Positions 5,402 through 55,080 of a DNA stretch of 64,000 nucleotides are shown here, one piece after another. Position 1 is the first letter of the stretch. Each line of letters begins with the position of its first letter. The notes beneath the pieces are model-generated. The model was not told where the DNA came from, made no database searches, and saw only the letters and a list, made by a program, of their open reading frames with translations. The stretch lies in the NCBI GenBank assembly GCA_002729875.1, contig PBZD01000126.1, positions 1-64,000 of the forward strand, read 5' to 3'. The position numbers were made by a program, and so were the translations under genes. The DNA is from Chromatiales bacterium (GTDB lineage: Bacteria > Pseudomonadota > Gammaproteobacteria > Steroidobacterales > GCA-2729495).

Positions 5402-5974
5402 ATGTATAACCGCCTACGAATGGCTGCAATTATCTTTGCACTTTCGCTTACCGGCATTCAAACAACAACTGCTTACGCCGCATCAGTTACACTGGTTCCG
5501 TCGTCTGCTGCCGTCAACGTCAGTAATGCTTTCACGATCAACCTGAACATGGATACAGCAGATGTGGCTGCAGAAACACCTGCGGCACACCCTGGTTCAT
5601 ATGCAGGTTCTGTCATCATTGATTTTGACCCTGCACTGGTAACCTACTCCGGCTCCATGTCCGGAATCACGGCCGGCACAATAGGTAGCATGCAAACTAT
5701 CTCATTCGATTTTTCCGGCGCGCCAGATGTCGGCACAGTTCGCGCGCTCGACTTTACAGCAGTCGGAACTGTCGGCAATACCATTAATTTTGGCCTGACT
5801 GATGCTGATGATTTCTTTGGCTCATTCACCAGCCAACTGCCGACAAACACACCGTTTACCCCCAGCTTTACCGGTGTGGATGTTCAGATTATTCCATTAC
5901 CGGCTGCCGGCTGGCTGATGCTGTCGGGACTGGGCGCAATTGGCTTCAGAGTTCGCCGGCACCGTTACTCCTGA
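5402..5974 (+). CDS. Secreted protein with cohesin-like domain and VPLPA/PEP-CTERM-type sorting tail
   Basis: The 190-residue protein starts at ATG 5402 after AAGGGAAAAAAA. A signal peptide ends near TTAYAA. Residues about 30-160 are all-beta and resemble cohesin-type modules (FTINLNMDTADV, GSVIIDFDPALVTYSG). The C-terminus is a sorting tail: IPLPAAGWLMLSGLGAIGF, then a basic cluster RVRRHRYS, matching the VPLPA variant of PEP-CTERM signals, which an exosortase recognises at the inner membrane before export to the surface or matrix. No exosortase is in the window; a PrsT-like TPR lipoprotein occurs at 50 kb. Codon use and orientation match the two preceding genes, so the three may form one surface-protein unit. 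Confidence 0.75.
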   Translation: MYNRLRMAAIIFALSLTGIQTTTAYAASVTLVPSSAAVNVSNAFTINLNMDTADVAAETPAAHPGSYAGSVIIDFDPALVTYSGSMSGITAGTIGSMQTISFDFSGAPDVGTVRALDFTAVGTVGNTINFGLTDADDFFGSFTSQLPTNTPFTPSFTGVDVQIIPLPAAGWLMLSGLGAIGFRVRRHRYS

Positions 5975-8197: not shown

Positions 8198-9220
8198 ATG
8201 AGATTTCATATTATTCTGGAAGCAAATAACTCGCCCGCAAGAATAGCCGAACTGGCCACTCTGGCGGAGAGTTTCGACATGACCGGTATCTGGGTATCGA
8301 ATATGCACGATGCCCGCGATCCTTTCATTACATTCACTGAAGCAGCACGGGTGACCAGGAAAATCCGGCTGGGTCCGGTCGCTGTATCTCCCTACGAGCT
8401 TCATCCACTGAAAATGGCAACTTCCTTGCTAACACTTAACGAGATAGCCGGTGGCCGCGCCCAGATCGGTGTCAGCGCAGGTGATGGCGGGACTGCAATG
8501 GCGATGGGATTTAAAGCCAGGCGCCGGGTGCGTGCAGTCCGGGAATGTGTCGATATTATCGAAGCAGCGGCAAACAGTGAACCGATCCGTTATGAGGGTG
8601 AGATATACAAGGCGCTTTACTACCACGCATCTTGGGTTACACAACCCGCACCACGGGTCTATGTCTGTGCCGGTGGCCCACAGATGCTCGCCTCGAGCGC
8701 TAAATATGCACAGGGAATCTTTCTTGGCGATCATCTGCCTGAACAGGTTGCAGCAGCGAGTGAAACGATCAAATCGGCACAGGCCGGAATCAACACCCCC
8801 AAGGATTTCAGGCTACTGAATTTCTGGGCCTGGCATGTTAAAGAAAGCCAGGATGACGCACGTGCCGAAGCCAGAATATGGCTTGCTGTGCGAGCCACCC
8901 CATGGCCGGGATTTTATCATCGTGACATCCTGCCCGATGAAGATATGCAGGTTGTCTGGGATAACCTGCCGGCAATCAACCAGGCTTTCTTTAACAAGAA
9001 TCCGCATATCAAGAATATTCCGCAAGATATTCTCGACCGACTTGTCGACCAGTGTTCATCAACATCATCGAGTGACAACCTGGATCACGAAATTGAACGA
9101 ATCCGCAGGTTTGCAGCGGCGGGCCTGACGGATATTGCGTTGAGAATTTATGAGAATCCTGAAAAATCGATACGCCTGATTGGTGAACGCATCATGCCGG
9201 CGCTGAACCCGCCCGGATGA
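8198..9220 (+). CDS. LLM-class flavin- or F420-dependent oxidoreductase (luciferase-like), copy 1
   Basis: The 340-residue TIM-barrel protein has an excellent ribosome site (GAGGGAGAG) ahead of ATG 8198. It has the LLM signatures shared with the two other copies in the window: SPYELHPLKMATSLLTLNEIAGGRAQIG, then FWAWHVK and, near the end, LDHEIERIRRFAAAGLTDIALRIYENP. The family transfers hydride or oxygen using FMN or coenzyme F420 (Mer-like reductases, alkanal monooxygenases). The insertion pattern resembles Mer/F420-type proteins more than LuxAB, but cofactor choice cannot be decided from sequence. It stands between a membrane-protein gene and the glutaredoxin fusion, so its substrate is unknown. 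Confidence 0.8.
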   Translation: MRFHIILEANNSPARIAELATLAESFDMTGIWVSNMHDARDPFITFTEAARVTRKIRLGPVAVSPYELHPLKMATSLLTLNEIAGGRAQIGVSAGDGGTAMAMGFKARRRVRAVRECVDIIEAAANSEPIRYEGEIYKALYYHASWVTQPAPRVYVCAGGPQMLASSAKYAQGIFLGDHLPEQVAAASETIKSAQAGINTPKDFRLLNFWAWHVKESQDDARAEARIWLAVRATPWPGFYHRDILPDEDMQVVWDNLPAINQAFFNKNPHIKNIPQDILDRLVDQCSSTSSSDNLDHEIERIRRFAAAGLTDIALRIYENPEKSIRLIGERIMPALNPPG

Positions 9221-26247: not shown

Positions 26248-27045
26248 TCACAAACCAAGTGGCGTAAATACATCACGTTTAATAAACCGGCTGGAGATAA
26301 ATCGCCACATTGTCTTCGGCCTGGTCAGCCAACGTACCGCAGCGCCGTTCCTGTCCGCAGCCAGAATACCCTCAACAAGAAACGGCGTGACTGTCTCGAC
26401 CGTATCGGCCAGAATATTCAAAACTTTTTTAACCTGCTCCCAACCCTCACCGCGCTGATCAGGAGGTGGCACGAGCATGTCTGTCACAACAATACCCGGA
26501 CTCAGGTAACACATTTTTACTGGCGTGCCTTCCAGTTCTGCTACAACCGACTTGGTGAAATAGCGTAGCGCACATTTTGTGCTGCCATAGACACTCACAC
26601 CCCTGCGCGTCATCCCATTACTGCCAAAACCCTCCATATTCCAGATCATGCCGCCACCCTGCTGGTATAGTTTCGGAATGACAACCCGATTACAGTGCAA
26701 TAATCCCACAATATTCGTCTGCACAGTGTGCATATAGTCTTCTTGCGGCAAGGCGAAAAAAGGTACTTTCATCCCATCACGTCCTGCATTGTTGATCCAG
26801 ATATCAACCTGGCCAAAGCCTCTTTCTGCCGCATCCCACAGTGCCTCTACCTGGTCAAACTCAGCTACGTCACACGGCTGGCCCAGTACGCTACAGTCCG
26901 GGAATTCATTGCCCAGATCGGTAACAGCGATTGCCACGGCTTCAGTTCGGCGACTCGAGATCATGATGTTGTGACCGCGCTTGAGGAATTCCCGCGCCAT
27001 GCCGTAGCCAATACCCTTGGTACTTCCGGTAATAACAATATTCAT
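26248..27045 (-). CDS. SDR-family oxidoreductase resembling chlorophyll(ide) b reductase (NYC1/NOL type)
   Basis: The 265-residue protein is a classical short-chain dehydrogenase: TGSTKGIGYG for the cofactor site, NNAG, and the catalytic Ser/Tyr/Lys in NMEGFGSNGM and YGSTK, with SPGIVVTDML after. The segments GSTKGIGYGMAREFLKRG, DIWINNAG, and GxGSxG...YGxTK and LSPGxVxTDxL resemble plant NOL/NYC1, which reduces the 7-formyl group of chlorophyll b, better than a general SDR. That resemblance is from memory and is suggestive only. It lacks an export signal, so it is cytoplasmic. It diverges from the PQQ dehydrogenase and converges with the methyltransferase gene. Confidence 0.75.
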   Translation of the reverse strand: MNIVITGSTKGIGYGMAREFLKRGHNIMISSRRTEAVAIAVTDLGNEFPDCSVLGQPCDVAEFDQVEALWDAAERGFGQVDIWINNAGRDGMKVPFFALPQEDYMHTVQTNIVGLLHCNRVVIPKLYQQGGGMIWNMEGFGSNGMTRRGVSVYGSTKCALRYFTKSVVAELEGTPVKMCYLSPGIVVTDMLVPPPDQRGEGWEQVKKVLNILADTVETVTPFLVEGILAADRNGAAVRWLTRPKTMWRFISSRFIKRDVFTPLGL

Positions 27046-43163: not shown

Positions 43164-44249
43164 TTAACGCAAAGCCGGCAGCACATGCTTGCCGAGCATC
43201 TGCAAACCATCCATCGGGTCATCGAACAAACGCAGCGACAATTCTGTCAGGCCGCTACTGGCGAAGGCTCTGAAACGCTCCAGCTCGCGGTCGATATCAT
43301 CCTCATCACCAGCTGATGACATACCGGCAATCAAATTATTGACAATGCTCTCAGGCACACCGTCAATTTTTCCGCTGCGCGTCCAGAACGCCTTAAAAAA
43401 GTTATCCCAGTTATCGATGACCAGTTGCACTTCGTCATCACCATTAACGTGTGGCGCAATATCATGCGGGGCTTTTGCTACTATTCCGCCACGCCAGATC
43501 AGCTCACGACGCGCCTCATACATCGATACATCTTTGTCTTTCTTGATATGCCAGGCCCAGAAATTACCGATACGAAAATCATCGGCCGGCTGCTCGCGTT
43601 TTGCCAGCCCGGTACGTACATTCTCCATAGCACCGGGCAGCATATCCGGTATAAAGTCACTGACTTGGATACCGTCTGCCATCCGTGCGCCCATGCGCAC
43701 CATCATCGGACCGCTGCAGCAACCGTAAATCAGCGGGCCGCCTGATTTGGCGTAGTCCATCTGGAAGGGTCGTGTAACCTGAAAGATCTCGCCATCGAAC
43801 GAATACACAAGTTTACCGGTACGAGCCTGAGCAATGAGTTCGATCGATTCCTGCACACCGCGAACCCGACGCTCCGGATTCTTTGCCCCGGTCTGTTCGT
43901 CCTTGAACGGCCAACTCTCGGTACCCTTGCCGATCTTCCAGCCGCAGGCTCCAAATACGCCACCGCCACCGCTGATCGCGACCATTGCGCGACCGTTCGC
44001 CATTTCATTCAGAGTCAGCAATGAATTGGTAATCTTAAGCGGGTGCATTTCCCATGGGCTTACCGCTAACGGACCGAGCAGGATCTTCGAGGTTGCCTGC
44101 GCTGCAGGCGCCAGAGTAAGAAATGCATCCCAATTCTGATGATAATTGGAGGACCAGATTGCCCTGATACCCATTCTTTCGGCCTCGACGGCCAATTCAG
44201 CCAACCGTGAAGGATTAACATCCTCGGCAATAATAATGTCAATATCCAT
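43164..44249 (-). CDS. LLM-class flavin- or F420-dependent oxidoreductase, copy 2
   Basis: The 361-residue protein starts MDIDIIIAEDVNP at ATG 44249. The family features seen in copies 1 and 3 are here too: SPWEMHPLKITNSLLTLNEMANGRAMVAISGGGG, FWAWHIKKDKDVSMYEARRELIWRGG, RELERFRAFASSGLTELSLRLF. A 20-residue insertion (WKIGKGTESWPFKDEQTGAKNPERR) distinguishes it. It diverges from the DUF1838 gene, 175 bases away. Cofactor and substrate are unknown. Confidence 0.8.
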   Translation of the reverse strand: MDIDIIIAEDVNPSRLAELAVEAERMGIRAIWSSNYHQNWDAFLTLAPAAQATSKILLGPLAVSPWEMHPLKITNSLLTLNEMANGRAMVAISGGGGVFGACGWKIGKGTESWPFKDEQTGAKNPERRVRGVQESIELIAQARTGKLVYSFDGEIFQVTRPFQMDYAKSGGPLIYGCCSGPMMVRMGARMADGIQVSDFIPDMLPGAMENVRTGLAKREQPADDFRIGNFWAWHIKKDKDVSMYEARRELIWRGGIVAKAPHDIAPHVNGDDEVQLVIDNWDNFFKAFWTRSGKIDGVPESIVNNLIAGMSSAGDEDDIDRELERFRAFASSGLTELSLRLFDDPMDGLQMLGKHVLPALR

Positions 44250-44424: not shown

Positions 44425-45417
44425 ATGGCTAAAATTTCCCGACGTCATTTTCTGAATAATGCCGGCATCGGACTGGCCTCGGCCGCTGCGTTCGGCGCCA
44501 CATCATCGGCATCGACCAACAACAGTGCCGGTATCACTGAAAAGTCCCTGCAGGGACCATACCTGGACCTGTCACAGCCCGAGGCAAACATGACCGCTTT
44601 TGCACGATTGCAAGGCGATCTTGACAGTTCAAAAACCAAGTACGGCTGGTACAAGGGCATGGTATCCGCTGTCATGCCGGGCAAGAAGATCGTGGATCTG
44701 TTCATGATGGAAGGCTTCTCCTGCACGCGACTATTGCCAAAAGAAGATGCACCCGGTTATCGCAAGGTATTACGTGAGGTAGGTTTCTATCGTGAACAGC
44801 GTTTTGGCCGAGCAGGCAAAATCATGGATACCTGGAAAAATCCGCTGACCAAGGAAACTGTCAAGGTCGTGCCGATCGCCAATGACCCGTTCAACTTCGA
44901 CATTACGCCCTTTTTTCCCGCTCCACCTAATTACGGCGGACTGAACAAGGCTAAGTTTCCAAAGATACCCTTTAAACTGCCATGGGAACCAGCAATCTAC
45001 GACAACAATGTACGCCTCGACACGCACATCCACCTGCTCTATAAGAATGCACTCGATCCACTCAAGTGGCCTCGTGAATCTTCAGGAAAAATGAACCGTG
45101 TCAGTGAGTTTTTCCTATACAACATCGATCTCGATGACCTGCAGAACCCTGATCTGACCAGTTGCCCGTACCGCGGCACCTGGTCACGAATCACACCATG
45201 GCTTCCGTGGATGCTAATGGGCCAGACACCGGGGCATATTGTCTATCAGTGCTACATGGGTGACGTAAAAAGTCTTGATCTACTGCCAAAAGACCTGGTC
45301 GCTGCTGCTGAGGCCATCGATCCAAAATATCTGCAAGCGCCAACCGAGGATTATGGACCGAGCCTGTCATCACTGGAAAATTACGCGCGGGAACAAGAAC
45401 CAATGCCGGTTAAATAG
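44425..45417 (+). CDS. Tat-exported DUF1838 family protein
   Basis: The 330-residue protein begins KISRRHFLNNAGIGLASAAA, a twin-arginine signal. The mature part (about 30-330) is rich in Trp, Tyr and Pro (EPAIYDNNVRLDTHIHLLYKNALDPLKWPRES, SRITPWLPWMLMGQTPG) and matches the DUF1838 family, whose function is not established. Folded export suggests a bound cofactor or a multi-protein complex. It is divergent from LLM copy 2, the arrangement often seen for coregulated catabolic genes. Confidence 0.78.
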   Translation: MAKISRRHFLNNAGIGLASAAAFGATSSASTNNSAGITEKSLQGPYLDLSQPEANMTAFARLQGDLDSSKTKYGWYKGMVSAVMPGKKIVDLFMMEGFSCTRLLPKEDAPGYRKVLREVGFYREQRFGRAGKIMDTWKNPLTKETVKVVPIANDPFNFDITPFFPAPPNYGGLNKAKFPKIPFKLPWEPAIYDNNVRLDTHIHLLYKNALDPLKWPRESSGKMNRVSEFFLYNIDLDDLQNPDLTSCPYRGTWSRITPWLPWMLMGQTPGHIVYQCYMGDVKSLDLLPKDLVAAAEAIDPKYLQAPTEDYGPSLSSLENYAREQEPMPVK

Positions 45418-48971: not shown

Positions 48972-49134
48972 CTGATCACTCCATACAATGGTTTATATAT
49001 AAGCAAATAACTGCTGAGGAACAAGGAATCCCGGCACCAGGGTGTCTGGCATTCAATCTACGAACAGGCTATCTTTGCTTGTTGATATCTTTAAGACTCC
49101 TGGTACAGCTGGAACCCAAACGAGGCAACAATCT

Positions 49135-50157
49135 GTGGACATTGACATCATTCTGGAACCCGACCTGACCCCGCAACAAATAACGGAACTGGGTCAGGCC
49201 GCAGAACGGTATGGCATCAGAGCCCTGTGGACCTCAAACTATTTCGCCCACTGGGATCCATTTATCAGCCTCGTACCTCTGGCGCAATCCACCAATAAAC
49301 TATTGATGGGTCCTCTTGCTGTAAGTCCGTTCGAGATGCATCCGCTTAAGATTGCCAACGGCTTATTGTCATTAAACGAAATATGCAACGGACGAGCACA
49401 GGTCGCAATAGGAGCCGGTGAGGGCAACCTCGATGCAATGGATCTGAAAAAACCGAAAAAAATTGTTCTGGCAATTCGTGAAGCACTAGAAATCGTACTT
49501 GCTGCAACTCATGGCAATCTCAAGGACGGGTACAACGGTGAAATTTTTAATGTCAACCTGCCCTGTGCCTATGACTGGTTAAGCGCCTCTTCACCGAAGA
49601 TTTATATGACAGCCTATCGCTACATGATGATGCGCATGGGTGGGAGAATCGCTGACGGTGTATTCGTGGGCTGCACCCCACCGGAAATCATGCAACCGGC
49701 GATGGAAAACGTAAACATAGGCCTAAGCCGTCGAGACATGCCAGCGGATAATTTCCGCACCAACACATTTTGGGCCTGGCACATTAAGGCAGACCGTGAC
49801 GAAGCCTACCGCGAATCACGCCGTGAACTCGCCTGGCGTGGTCGAAAACTTGACCCTGAGCTGTTAATCAACTGGCTGACCGAAGAAGAGGCGCAGTTCG
49901 TTCAGGACAGTTTTACAGCGTACGTCACAGCATATTTCGACCGAACCGGTATAGTTAAAGGTGTTTCAGATGATATTAATGATCGCCTGATGCACGGCAT
50001 GACATCGACCGGCGGACTGGATGCTCTGGATCGTGAAATCGAACGCTTTAAATTATTTCATAAACAGGGGCTTACAGAAATTGCGTTGCGACTCCATGAA
50101 GACCCAATGGATGCACTGAAGATCATCGGCGAGCAAGTCGTTCCTAAATTAAAATAA
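49135..50157 (+). CDS. LLM-class flavin- or F420-dependent oxidoreductase, copy 3
   Basis: A GTG at 49135 (with GAGG nine bases before it) gives 340 residues starting DIDIILEPDLTPQQITELG, the same N-terminus as copy 2 and the same length as copy 1. The frame could also start at 49042, but the extra 31 residues are unlike the family. Motifs SPFEMHPLKIANGLLSLNEICNGRAQVAIGAGEG, FWAWHIKADRDEAYRESRRELAWRGR and LDREIERFKLFHKQGLTEIALRL are present. It is followed 33 bases later by the TPR lipoprotein gene. Confidence 0.8.
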   Translation: MDIDIILEPDLTPQQITELGQAAERYGIRALWTSNYFAHWDPFISLVPLAQSTNKLLMGPLAVSPFEMHPLKIANGLLSLNEICNGRAQVAIGAGEGNLDAMDLKKPKKIVLAIREALEIVLAATHGNLKDGYNGEIFNVNLPCAYDWLSASSPKIYMTAYRYMMMRMGGRIADGVFVGCTPPEIMQPAMENVNIGLSRRDMPADNFRTNTFWAWHIKADRDEAYRESRRELAWRGRKLDPELLINWLTEEEAQFVQDSFTAYVTAYFDRTGIVKGVSDDINDRLMHGMTSTGGLDALDREIERFKLFHKQGLTEIALRLHEDPMDALKIIGEQVVPKLK

Positions 50158-54195: not shown

Positions 54196-55080
54196 CTATT
54201 TCAACCACTTGCCACGATCAGCTTCCATCTGCACGATGCCACCACGCCGATCCAGCATGAATTTGGCCTGCTCAGAACCAAATACACGATCAACCAGAAC
54301 ATTCATCGGATCCGAACGGTTGGTGTATTCGCGATAGGTAAAATCATACTCCTGCTGTGCGTTGCGCTGTTCATTGGGTAGTTTCTCTGCCTCATCGAGC
54401 CAGCGGAACCAGCGATCGACAAATTTCCCAAGGTAAGCCTCGCATTGATCGATATGCTCATCAGTAAGATCAGTGATATAACTCGAACAAACCGGTGACT
54501 GCATACCACGAATCACCGGTCCGTGGCTTGCTGACCAGATAAAATCTTCATTAGCACGGAACTCAAGATAATCCTTGTTGACATCGCCCTCATAATATTT
54601 ATTGACGTAGTCTTCGTTAACCTTGATATCGACTCGCGGCACATAATCCGCATAAAACAACAGGTTCGGCACCGTTCCAAAAATAATCATCAGGTTAGGT
54701 ACTTGCGTCTCCTGACCAAGCGTCACGTTGATATTCATATCGATGATGCTGGCCTGACGATTACCAATCCAGGATCGAACAAACCAATCCATATCATTAC
54801 CGGTGTAGCCATAAAACGCACCTTCCATCTGTCCATCAGGCGAGGTGTAGTAATCAGCCCCCTTAGAAATAGGATGCAGTTCGGCACCGAAATACTTGAT
54901 CATTCGGTCGGCTATCTTGCCGTGGATACCCCAACAGCGCTCCCACTGTTTGGAGACATCAATATTTGGATTTTCGGCCAAAAATTCATGAATTGTCTTT
55001 ACATCACTTTGCTTGCTCATTGCGCTAAAACCTTGAATTCCTGTCATGATCCGGAGTTTAGATCCTATCAGGACATTCAT
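54196..55080 (-). CDS. Red chlorophyll catabolite reductase (RCCR)-like protein
   Basis: The 294-residue protein (ATG 55080; the internal Met at 55047 or 55020 are possible starts) has no enzyme annotation I can read directly, but its middle third matches plant RCCR, the ferredoxin-dependent bilin reductase of chlorophyll breakdown, in order: RSWI...DMNIN, VPNLMIIF, then PRVDIKVNEDYVNKYYE, GPVIRGMQSPV and, near the end, RVFGSEQAKFMLD; the spacing of these segments also agrees. The comparison is from memory, not an alignment. If right, it reduces a linear tetrapyrrole. It is divergent from the aminotransferase gene. Confidence 0.55.
   Translation of the reverse strand: MNVLIGSKLRIMTGIQGFSAMSKQSDVKTIHEFLAENPNIDVSKQWERCWGIHGKIADRMIKYFGAELHPISKGADYYTSPDGQMEGAFYGYTGNDMDWFVRSWIGNRQASIIDMNINVTLGQETQVPNLMIIFGTVPNLLFYADYVPRVDIKVNEDYVNKYYEGDVNKDYLEFRANEDFIWSASHGPVIRGMQSPVCSSYITDLTDEHIDQCEAYLGKFVDRWFRWLDEAEKLPNEQRNAQQEYDFTYREYTNRSDPMNVLVDRVFGSEQAKFMLDRRGGIVQMEADRGKWLK

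Follow-up and report, generated by a model that had tools for sequence, protein, structure and literature searches.

What does a marine heterotrophic bacterium do with a gene that resembles a plant enzyme for detoxifying ring-opened chlorophyll? The question is raised by an open reading frame (ORF; Table 1) in a 64,000-nucleotide stretch of a Chromatiales bacterium genome (contig PBZD01000126.1, positions 1–64,000; the whole stretch is hereafter the window), whose product a sequence-only reading had likened to red chlorophyll catabolite reductase (RCCR). That reading had RCCR open the chlorophyll macrocycle, but opening is the work of PaO, and RCCR then reduces a double bond of the opened product (PMC4950323). 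Chlorophyll and heme turn over in vast quantities, and the literature searched, which covered few subscription journals, yielded no description of a bacterial pathway linking an opened tetrapyrrole with central metabolism, nor any paper on bacterial RCC reductase in gammaproteobacteria, on the clusters described below or on tetrapyrrole use by Microbulbifer. From sequence and predicted structure, the window protein is best placed in the RCC-reductase sequence family, as a member whose active site is altered and for which the functional name RCC reductase is unwarranted. We propose, with moderate confidence, that it is a ferredoxin-fed reductase of one double bond in an externally obtained linear tetrapyrrole.

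Family and fold of the window protein

In a Pfam profile search the ORF matched PF06405 (RCC_reductase) at 30.2 bits (E 3.4e-7; curated cut-off 24.9), whereas PF05996, the family of the ferredoxin-dependent bilin reductases (FDBRs), remained below its cut-off (14.2 versus 31 bits, E 0.035) and no NCBIfam model was significant. When the window protein was compared with all PDB chains using phmmer, only the plant (Arabidopsis) RCCR chains 3agb, 3aga and 2zxk fell under E 1e-4 (about 3e-5), and a profile built from 31 relatives retrieved the same three chains at E 5e-9. The family match is not a chance one. Identity to plant RCCR is about 16–18 %. The segments on which the first comparison had been built are present, and SWI, PN, RxD....DY...YY, R..SP and R.FG.E lie inside the HMMER alignment to 3agb.

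The AlphaFold2 model (predicted local distance difference test, pLDDT, 85; predicted template modelling score 0.82) has RCCR 3agb as its top structural match (E 2.2e-12), followed by HY2, PebB, PebA, PcyA and PebS, so that the proposed RCCR resemblance and bilin-reductase fold are both borne out. The gene probably starts at the ATG at 55020 (residue 21, 274-residue product) rather than at 55080, because alignment with homologues begins at residue 21, residues 1–27 have pLDDT <50 and a purine-rich stretch lies upstream of this ATG. A significant fold match was also obtained with PDB 8xqw_H and 8xks_P, a subunit of the chloroplast Ycf2/Orf2971–FtsHi motor complex.

Relatives were sorted into types: A (the window type), B, M (the counterpart in a Microbulbifer cluster) and the more distant C, D, E and F. 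Identity to the window protein is 76–93 % for A, which is found in the same family of organisms (93 % for a Chromatiales metagenome-assembled genome, the nearest among the loci listed), 50–56 % for B and 44–46 % for M. In a tree of 48 rows, GtPEBB, C and E fall apart from plant RCCR and the D, F, M, B and A types (support 99/94), so that the window protein groups with plant RCCR in the split between RCCR and the FDBRs; the tree carries a long-branch warning because the RCCR and GtPEBB sequences are only partial. The A type looks like a specialised duplicate of the B type.

Active-site residues

Residue positions were counted from the conserved proline of the fourth strand (P; P128 in the window protein) in a MAFFT alignment, chained through the PebB sequence GtPEBB. 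The catalytic residues of RCCR we take to be Glu154 and Asp291, numbers that agree with the chain numbering of 3agb. Of this pair the window protein retains the Asp291 equivalent, Asp257, which is kept in all types aligned and is shared with the FDBRs, but has replaced the Glu154 equivalent by Ile133. The central Asp of the FDBRs, at the same position, is thereby also missing: P+5 is Ile in both A and B types, Ala in D and F, Asp in Microbulbifer C and Glu in E. In GtPEBB this Asp is D99, and D219, the counterpart of Asp257, is essential (PMC6755814). Asn116 is a further point of likeness to RCCR and the FDBRs, D and F having His there; Asp114, in contrast, departs from the Ser of RCCR.

Because PcyA Ile86 lies near Glu76 and Asp105 (PMC9800206, which together with general knowledge supplies the PcyA numbering), a carboxylate seems, on this alignment, to have shifted to the neighbouring strand in the window protein as Asp114. 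Direct equivalence of Asp114 with PcyA Asp105 was considered and rejected, the chain through GtPEBB leading instead to PcyA position 86. HY2 of vascular plants is a precedent for loss of the central Asp, as it employs another Asp in its place (PMC6755814). A moved acid, if true, would be a further way for the bilin-reductase fold to protonate its substrate, as HY2 once showed.

Table 1. Features of the window discussed in the text; offsets are counted from the fourth-strand proline.
Feature	Position	Strand	Offset	Basis or equivalent residues
RCCR-like CDS (RCC_reductase family, FDBR fold), 294 aa ORF	54196..55080	-		PF06405 score, AlphaFold2 fold
Asp114 codon	54739..54741	-	P-14	No variation in 31 A/B-type relatives; Ile86 in PcyA, Ser in plant RCCR
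Asn116 codon	54733..54735	-	P-12	Invariant; PcyA His88; Asn in PebB (GtPEBB) and plant RCCR
Ile133 codon	54682..54684	-	P+5	Catalytic Glu154 in RCCR; central Asp in FDBRs (GtPEBB D99, PcyA D105)
Asp257 codon, invariant Asp-Pro motif	54310..54312	-		RCCR Asp291, GtPEBB Asp219
Luciferase-like flavin monooxygenase, possible functional partner	49042..50157	+		PF00296; positions in 15 genomes

Proposed reaction and points against it

We infer an enzymatic activity, a ferredoxin donor, a tetrapyrrole substrate and a role for Asp114, as follows. The window protein would draw single electrons from a 2Fe–2S ferredoxin, and pocket residues would donate protons, so that a linear tetrapyrrole obtained from outside the cell is reduced at one specific double bond; Asp114, reaching in from the neighbouring strand, would together with Asp257 do the job of Glu154 in RCCR or Asp105 in PcyA. 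The other members of the fold among the PDB matches (RCCR, FDBRs and coproporphyrinogen oxidase) act on tetrapyrroles.

Several observations weigh against this proposal. First, because the acid central to RCCR and FDBR chemistry is Ile in the A and B types, the protein could be a binder that does not carry out the usual reaction. Second, an Asp at position 86 of PcyA blocks turnover rather than supporting it, though Asp105 is present there too (PMC9800206). Third, the place of Asp114 in the pocket is taken from the alignment. Fourth, the fold also occurs in the motor-complex subunit 8xqw_H, in which a catalytic role is not obvious. Lastly, no ferredoxin gene was seen next to the window gene, and the neighbours of A-type genes differ between genera.

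Two-component and ferredoxin genes beside the B type

Among 62 loci, the RCCR-like gene is close to a response regulator in 23 and to a histidine kinase in 25; a Fer2 ferredoxin gene lies within 7.5 kb on the same strand in 19, all 19 with a histidine kinase near. These loci are of the B type, many of them from close relatives, and in many relatives the B-type gene stands upstream of both the two-component system and the ferredoxin gene. The ferredoxin linkage fits a ferredoxin-dependent enzyme, although it is not proof of one.

The response regulators and histidine kinases near B-type genes (23–25 of the 62 loci), taken with the loss of the central acid, would also suit a protein whose reductase activity has been lost and which binds a bilin or has a sensory role, serving as a carrier or regulator, for example upstream of the B-type two-component system. 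We regard this as unlikely, given that divergent relatives share Asp114, Asn116, Asp257 and many other residues without exception, that ferredoxin accompanies many of the two-component loci and that cluster members retain acids or His at the equivalent positions.

Plant-type chlorophyll breakdown and other sources of substrate

Sequence family, tree placement and top sequence and structure matches would all be expected of a true RCC reductase that carries out the plant reaction on red chlorophyll catabolite, or on a phyllobilin close to it, acquired from algae or plants. The sequence-only reading had suggested looking for oxygenases acting on pheophorbide, and none of 28 genomes, the window's own (78 % complete) included, has a member of the PaO family (PF08417) over cut-off. 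With PaO missing from its own genome and from relatives, plant-like PaO chlorophyll breakdown was rejected. The bacterium would moreover need to import red chlorophyll catabolite, which in plants is a short-lived intermediate. No linked gene could be recognised as a chlorophyllase, dechelatase or PaO, and Ile stands in place of Glu154; a true RCC reductase is therefore distinctly improbable. The earlier idea of pigment or tetrapyrrole degradation thus survives in part: some linear tetrapyrrole remains the best inference for the family's substrate, but algal chlorophyll broken down by the plant route does not fit the missing PaO and the lost Glu154.

The setting of the window protein differs from that of the FDBRs in being neither cyanobacterial nor algal nor phage and in lacking a heme oxygenase gene over cut-off. 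Canonical heme oxygenase (PF01126) was over cut-off in 0 of 33 genomes, with one sub-threshold match (G003); a canonical heme oxygenase supplying a biliverdin reductase was accordingly rejected, and biliverdin made by the cell's own canonical enzyme is an unlikely substrate. Reaction-centre genes (PF00124) were found in only two of the 33 genomes (G025 and G106) and not in the window's own, in keeping with the heterotrophic host assumed at the outset, and a phototroph acting on its own bacteriochlorophyll was rejected as well.

The window does contain the NYC1/NOL-like short-chain dehydrogenase/reductase (SDR) that the sequence-only reading had pointed to (26248–27045), but not as a partner of the RCCR-like gene. 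Each of the 20 family genomes tested has an orthologue, even the four in which no PF06405 gene was detected, and the two genes share a contig only in the window's own genome and one congener; with linkage missing in relatives, this candidate was rejected.

Luciferase-like monooxygenases

In 8 of 15 A-type loci, from three genera, a luciferase-like monooxygenase of the family listed in Table 1 is encoded no more than about 5 kb from the RCCR-like gene. The link is suggestive only, because the true orthologue is near (about 5 kb) in two genera and elsewhere in others, and because each genome has 6–20 homologues (14 in the window's own). That the protein has drifted to reducing a non-tetrapyrrole (another electron-poor polyene or N-heterocycle), coupled to these flavin monooxygenases in an aromatic or sterol degrader, is very unlikely: VanA-type Rieske oxygenases are abundant in the host genomes (4–18 in most) and a monooxygenase is near the A-type gene in three genera, but abundance and shared ancestry could explain the monooxygenase link, and enzymes of the fold are not known to act on substrates other than tetrapyrroles. 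The window holds three luciferase-like monooxygenase paralogs (8198–9220, 43164–44249 and 49042–50157).

Distribution of the family

The family is carried by 55 of 147 relatives and by one of 398 genomes drawn across the phylum, namely the window's own. A scan of genome contigs gave at least 80 loci. Their labels are almost all gammaproteobacterial or generic and include Steroidobacteraceae, Nevskiaceae, Woeseia, Halieaceae and Microbulbifer; the labels of metagenome-assembled genomes are unreliable (one says Klebsiella pneumoniae, another Rhodospirillales). The family has its main concentration in a single gammaproteobacterial order, with further members in Microbulbifer and a few others. It resembles the pre-PcyA and bacterial RCCR-related outgroup sequences, likewise superfamily members in heterotrophic bacteria, among which Ca. 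Schekmanbacteria sequences were placed in the RCCR outgroup (PMC10151467).

The window's own genome carries a second FDBR-fold paralog, of the C type (contig C32, L022:1541-2287, + strand). Its fold kinship was seen in a profile comparison (E 4.5e-12) and in AlphaFold2 and Foldseek comparisons that rank RCCR first. Next to it are genes for an NAD-epimerase-like protein and an MFS transporter, and a UbiD-like ORF is close by.

A candidate catabolic cluster outside the window

In Microbulbifer, three to four superfamily genes lie within ~50 kb, conserved in four genomes: the M type is accompanied by two to three further members (C and D, with E in two genomes). Around them (loci L153–L164) are genes, some identified from sequence rather than by profile search, for TonB receptors, MFS transporters, an epimerase, SDRs and alpha/beta hydrolases; for a flavin adenine dinucleotide-dependent monooxygenase, a flavin reductase and a rubredoxin–reductase fusion; for 3-isopropylmalate-dehydratase-type subunits, MmgE/PrpD, coenzyme A transferases, HMG-CoA lyase-type proteins and a PrpB-type lyase; and for nitrilases and two arylmalonate decarboxylase/maleate-isomerase-type proteins. 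Two further proteins, L163:6932-7903 (-, 323 aa) and L163:9608-10240 (-, 210 aa), are highly conserved in the cluster, gave no significant Pfam or PDB match and are possibly new families.

Much of this gene set was found by BLAST in other genomes (loci L167–L178), namely G151, G152 (Nevskiaceae), G153, G154 (Halieaceae) and G081 (the window's order). In all five an F-type RCCR-like gene, a type that matches PF06405 (E 8e-12 and 2e-13 in the two tested), adjoins a Rieske oxygenase gene; the pair is divergent (head-to-head) with a short gap in four, whereas in G153 the two genes are separated by ~0.7 kb and lie at a contig end. The arrangement recalls the PaO–RCCR step of plants, but the Rieske C-terminus is VanA-type and not PaO-type, and no pair of this kind was seen beside the window gene. 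A Microbulbifer-type cluster in the window's own genome was rejected: the cluster marker protein is missing there and is absent from 31 of 32 related genomes, being present only in G081. Rieske homologues were dropped as a marker, being too numerous per genome to inform.

Substituted maleimides are the usual products of pyrrole-ring oxidation (cf. PMC7318184). Together with the tetrapyrrole substrates of the fold's known enzymes, this makes catabolism of a tetrapyrrole a good hypothesis for the cluster. We tentatively envisage a bacterial pathway with an RCCR-fold core, seen in Microbulbifer and, among others, in one bacterium each of the Halieaceae and Nevskiaceae. A chlorophyll-, heme- or phycobilin-derived tetrapyrrole would be taken up and oxidized by the Rieske enzyme, reduced stepwise by three to four dedicated paralogs with different active-site make-up and cleaved into monopyrrole-derived maleimides; nitrilase/amidase, maleate-isomerase-like, isopropylmalate-dehydratase-like and methylisocitrate-lyase-like enzymes would then lead into central metabolism. 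In the window organism, with its A-type and C-type enzymes, the pathway would be reduced or different. Since its genome is without the cluster marker, the pathway is not simply transferable to the window gene; the cluster supports a linear-tetrapyrrole role for the family, not directly for that gene. Conservation in culturable Microbulbifer strains makes the pathway question open to growth tests and knock-outs.

Two minor observations concern other genes of the window. A DUF1838 protein is encoded at 44425–45417 (PF08894, E 7e-43), and DUF1838-like proteins (28–29 % identity) occur in the Microbulbifer cluster loci. The protein encoded at 5402–5974 has, as read from its sequence, a putative PEP-CTERM-like C-terminal sorting tail.
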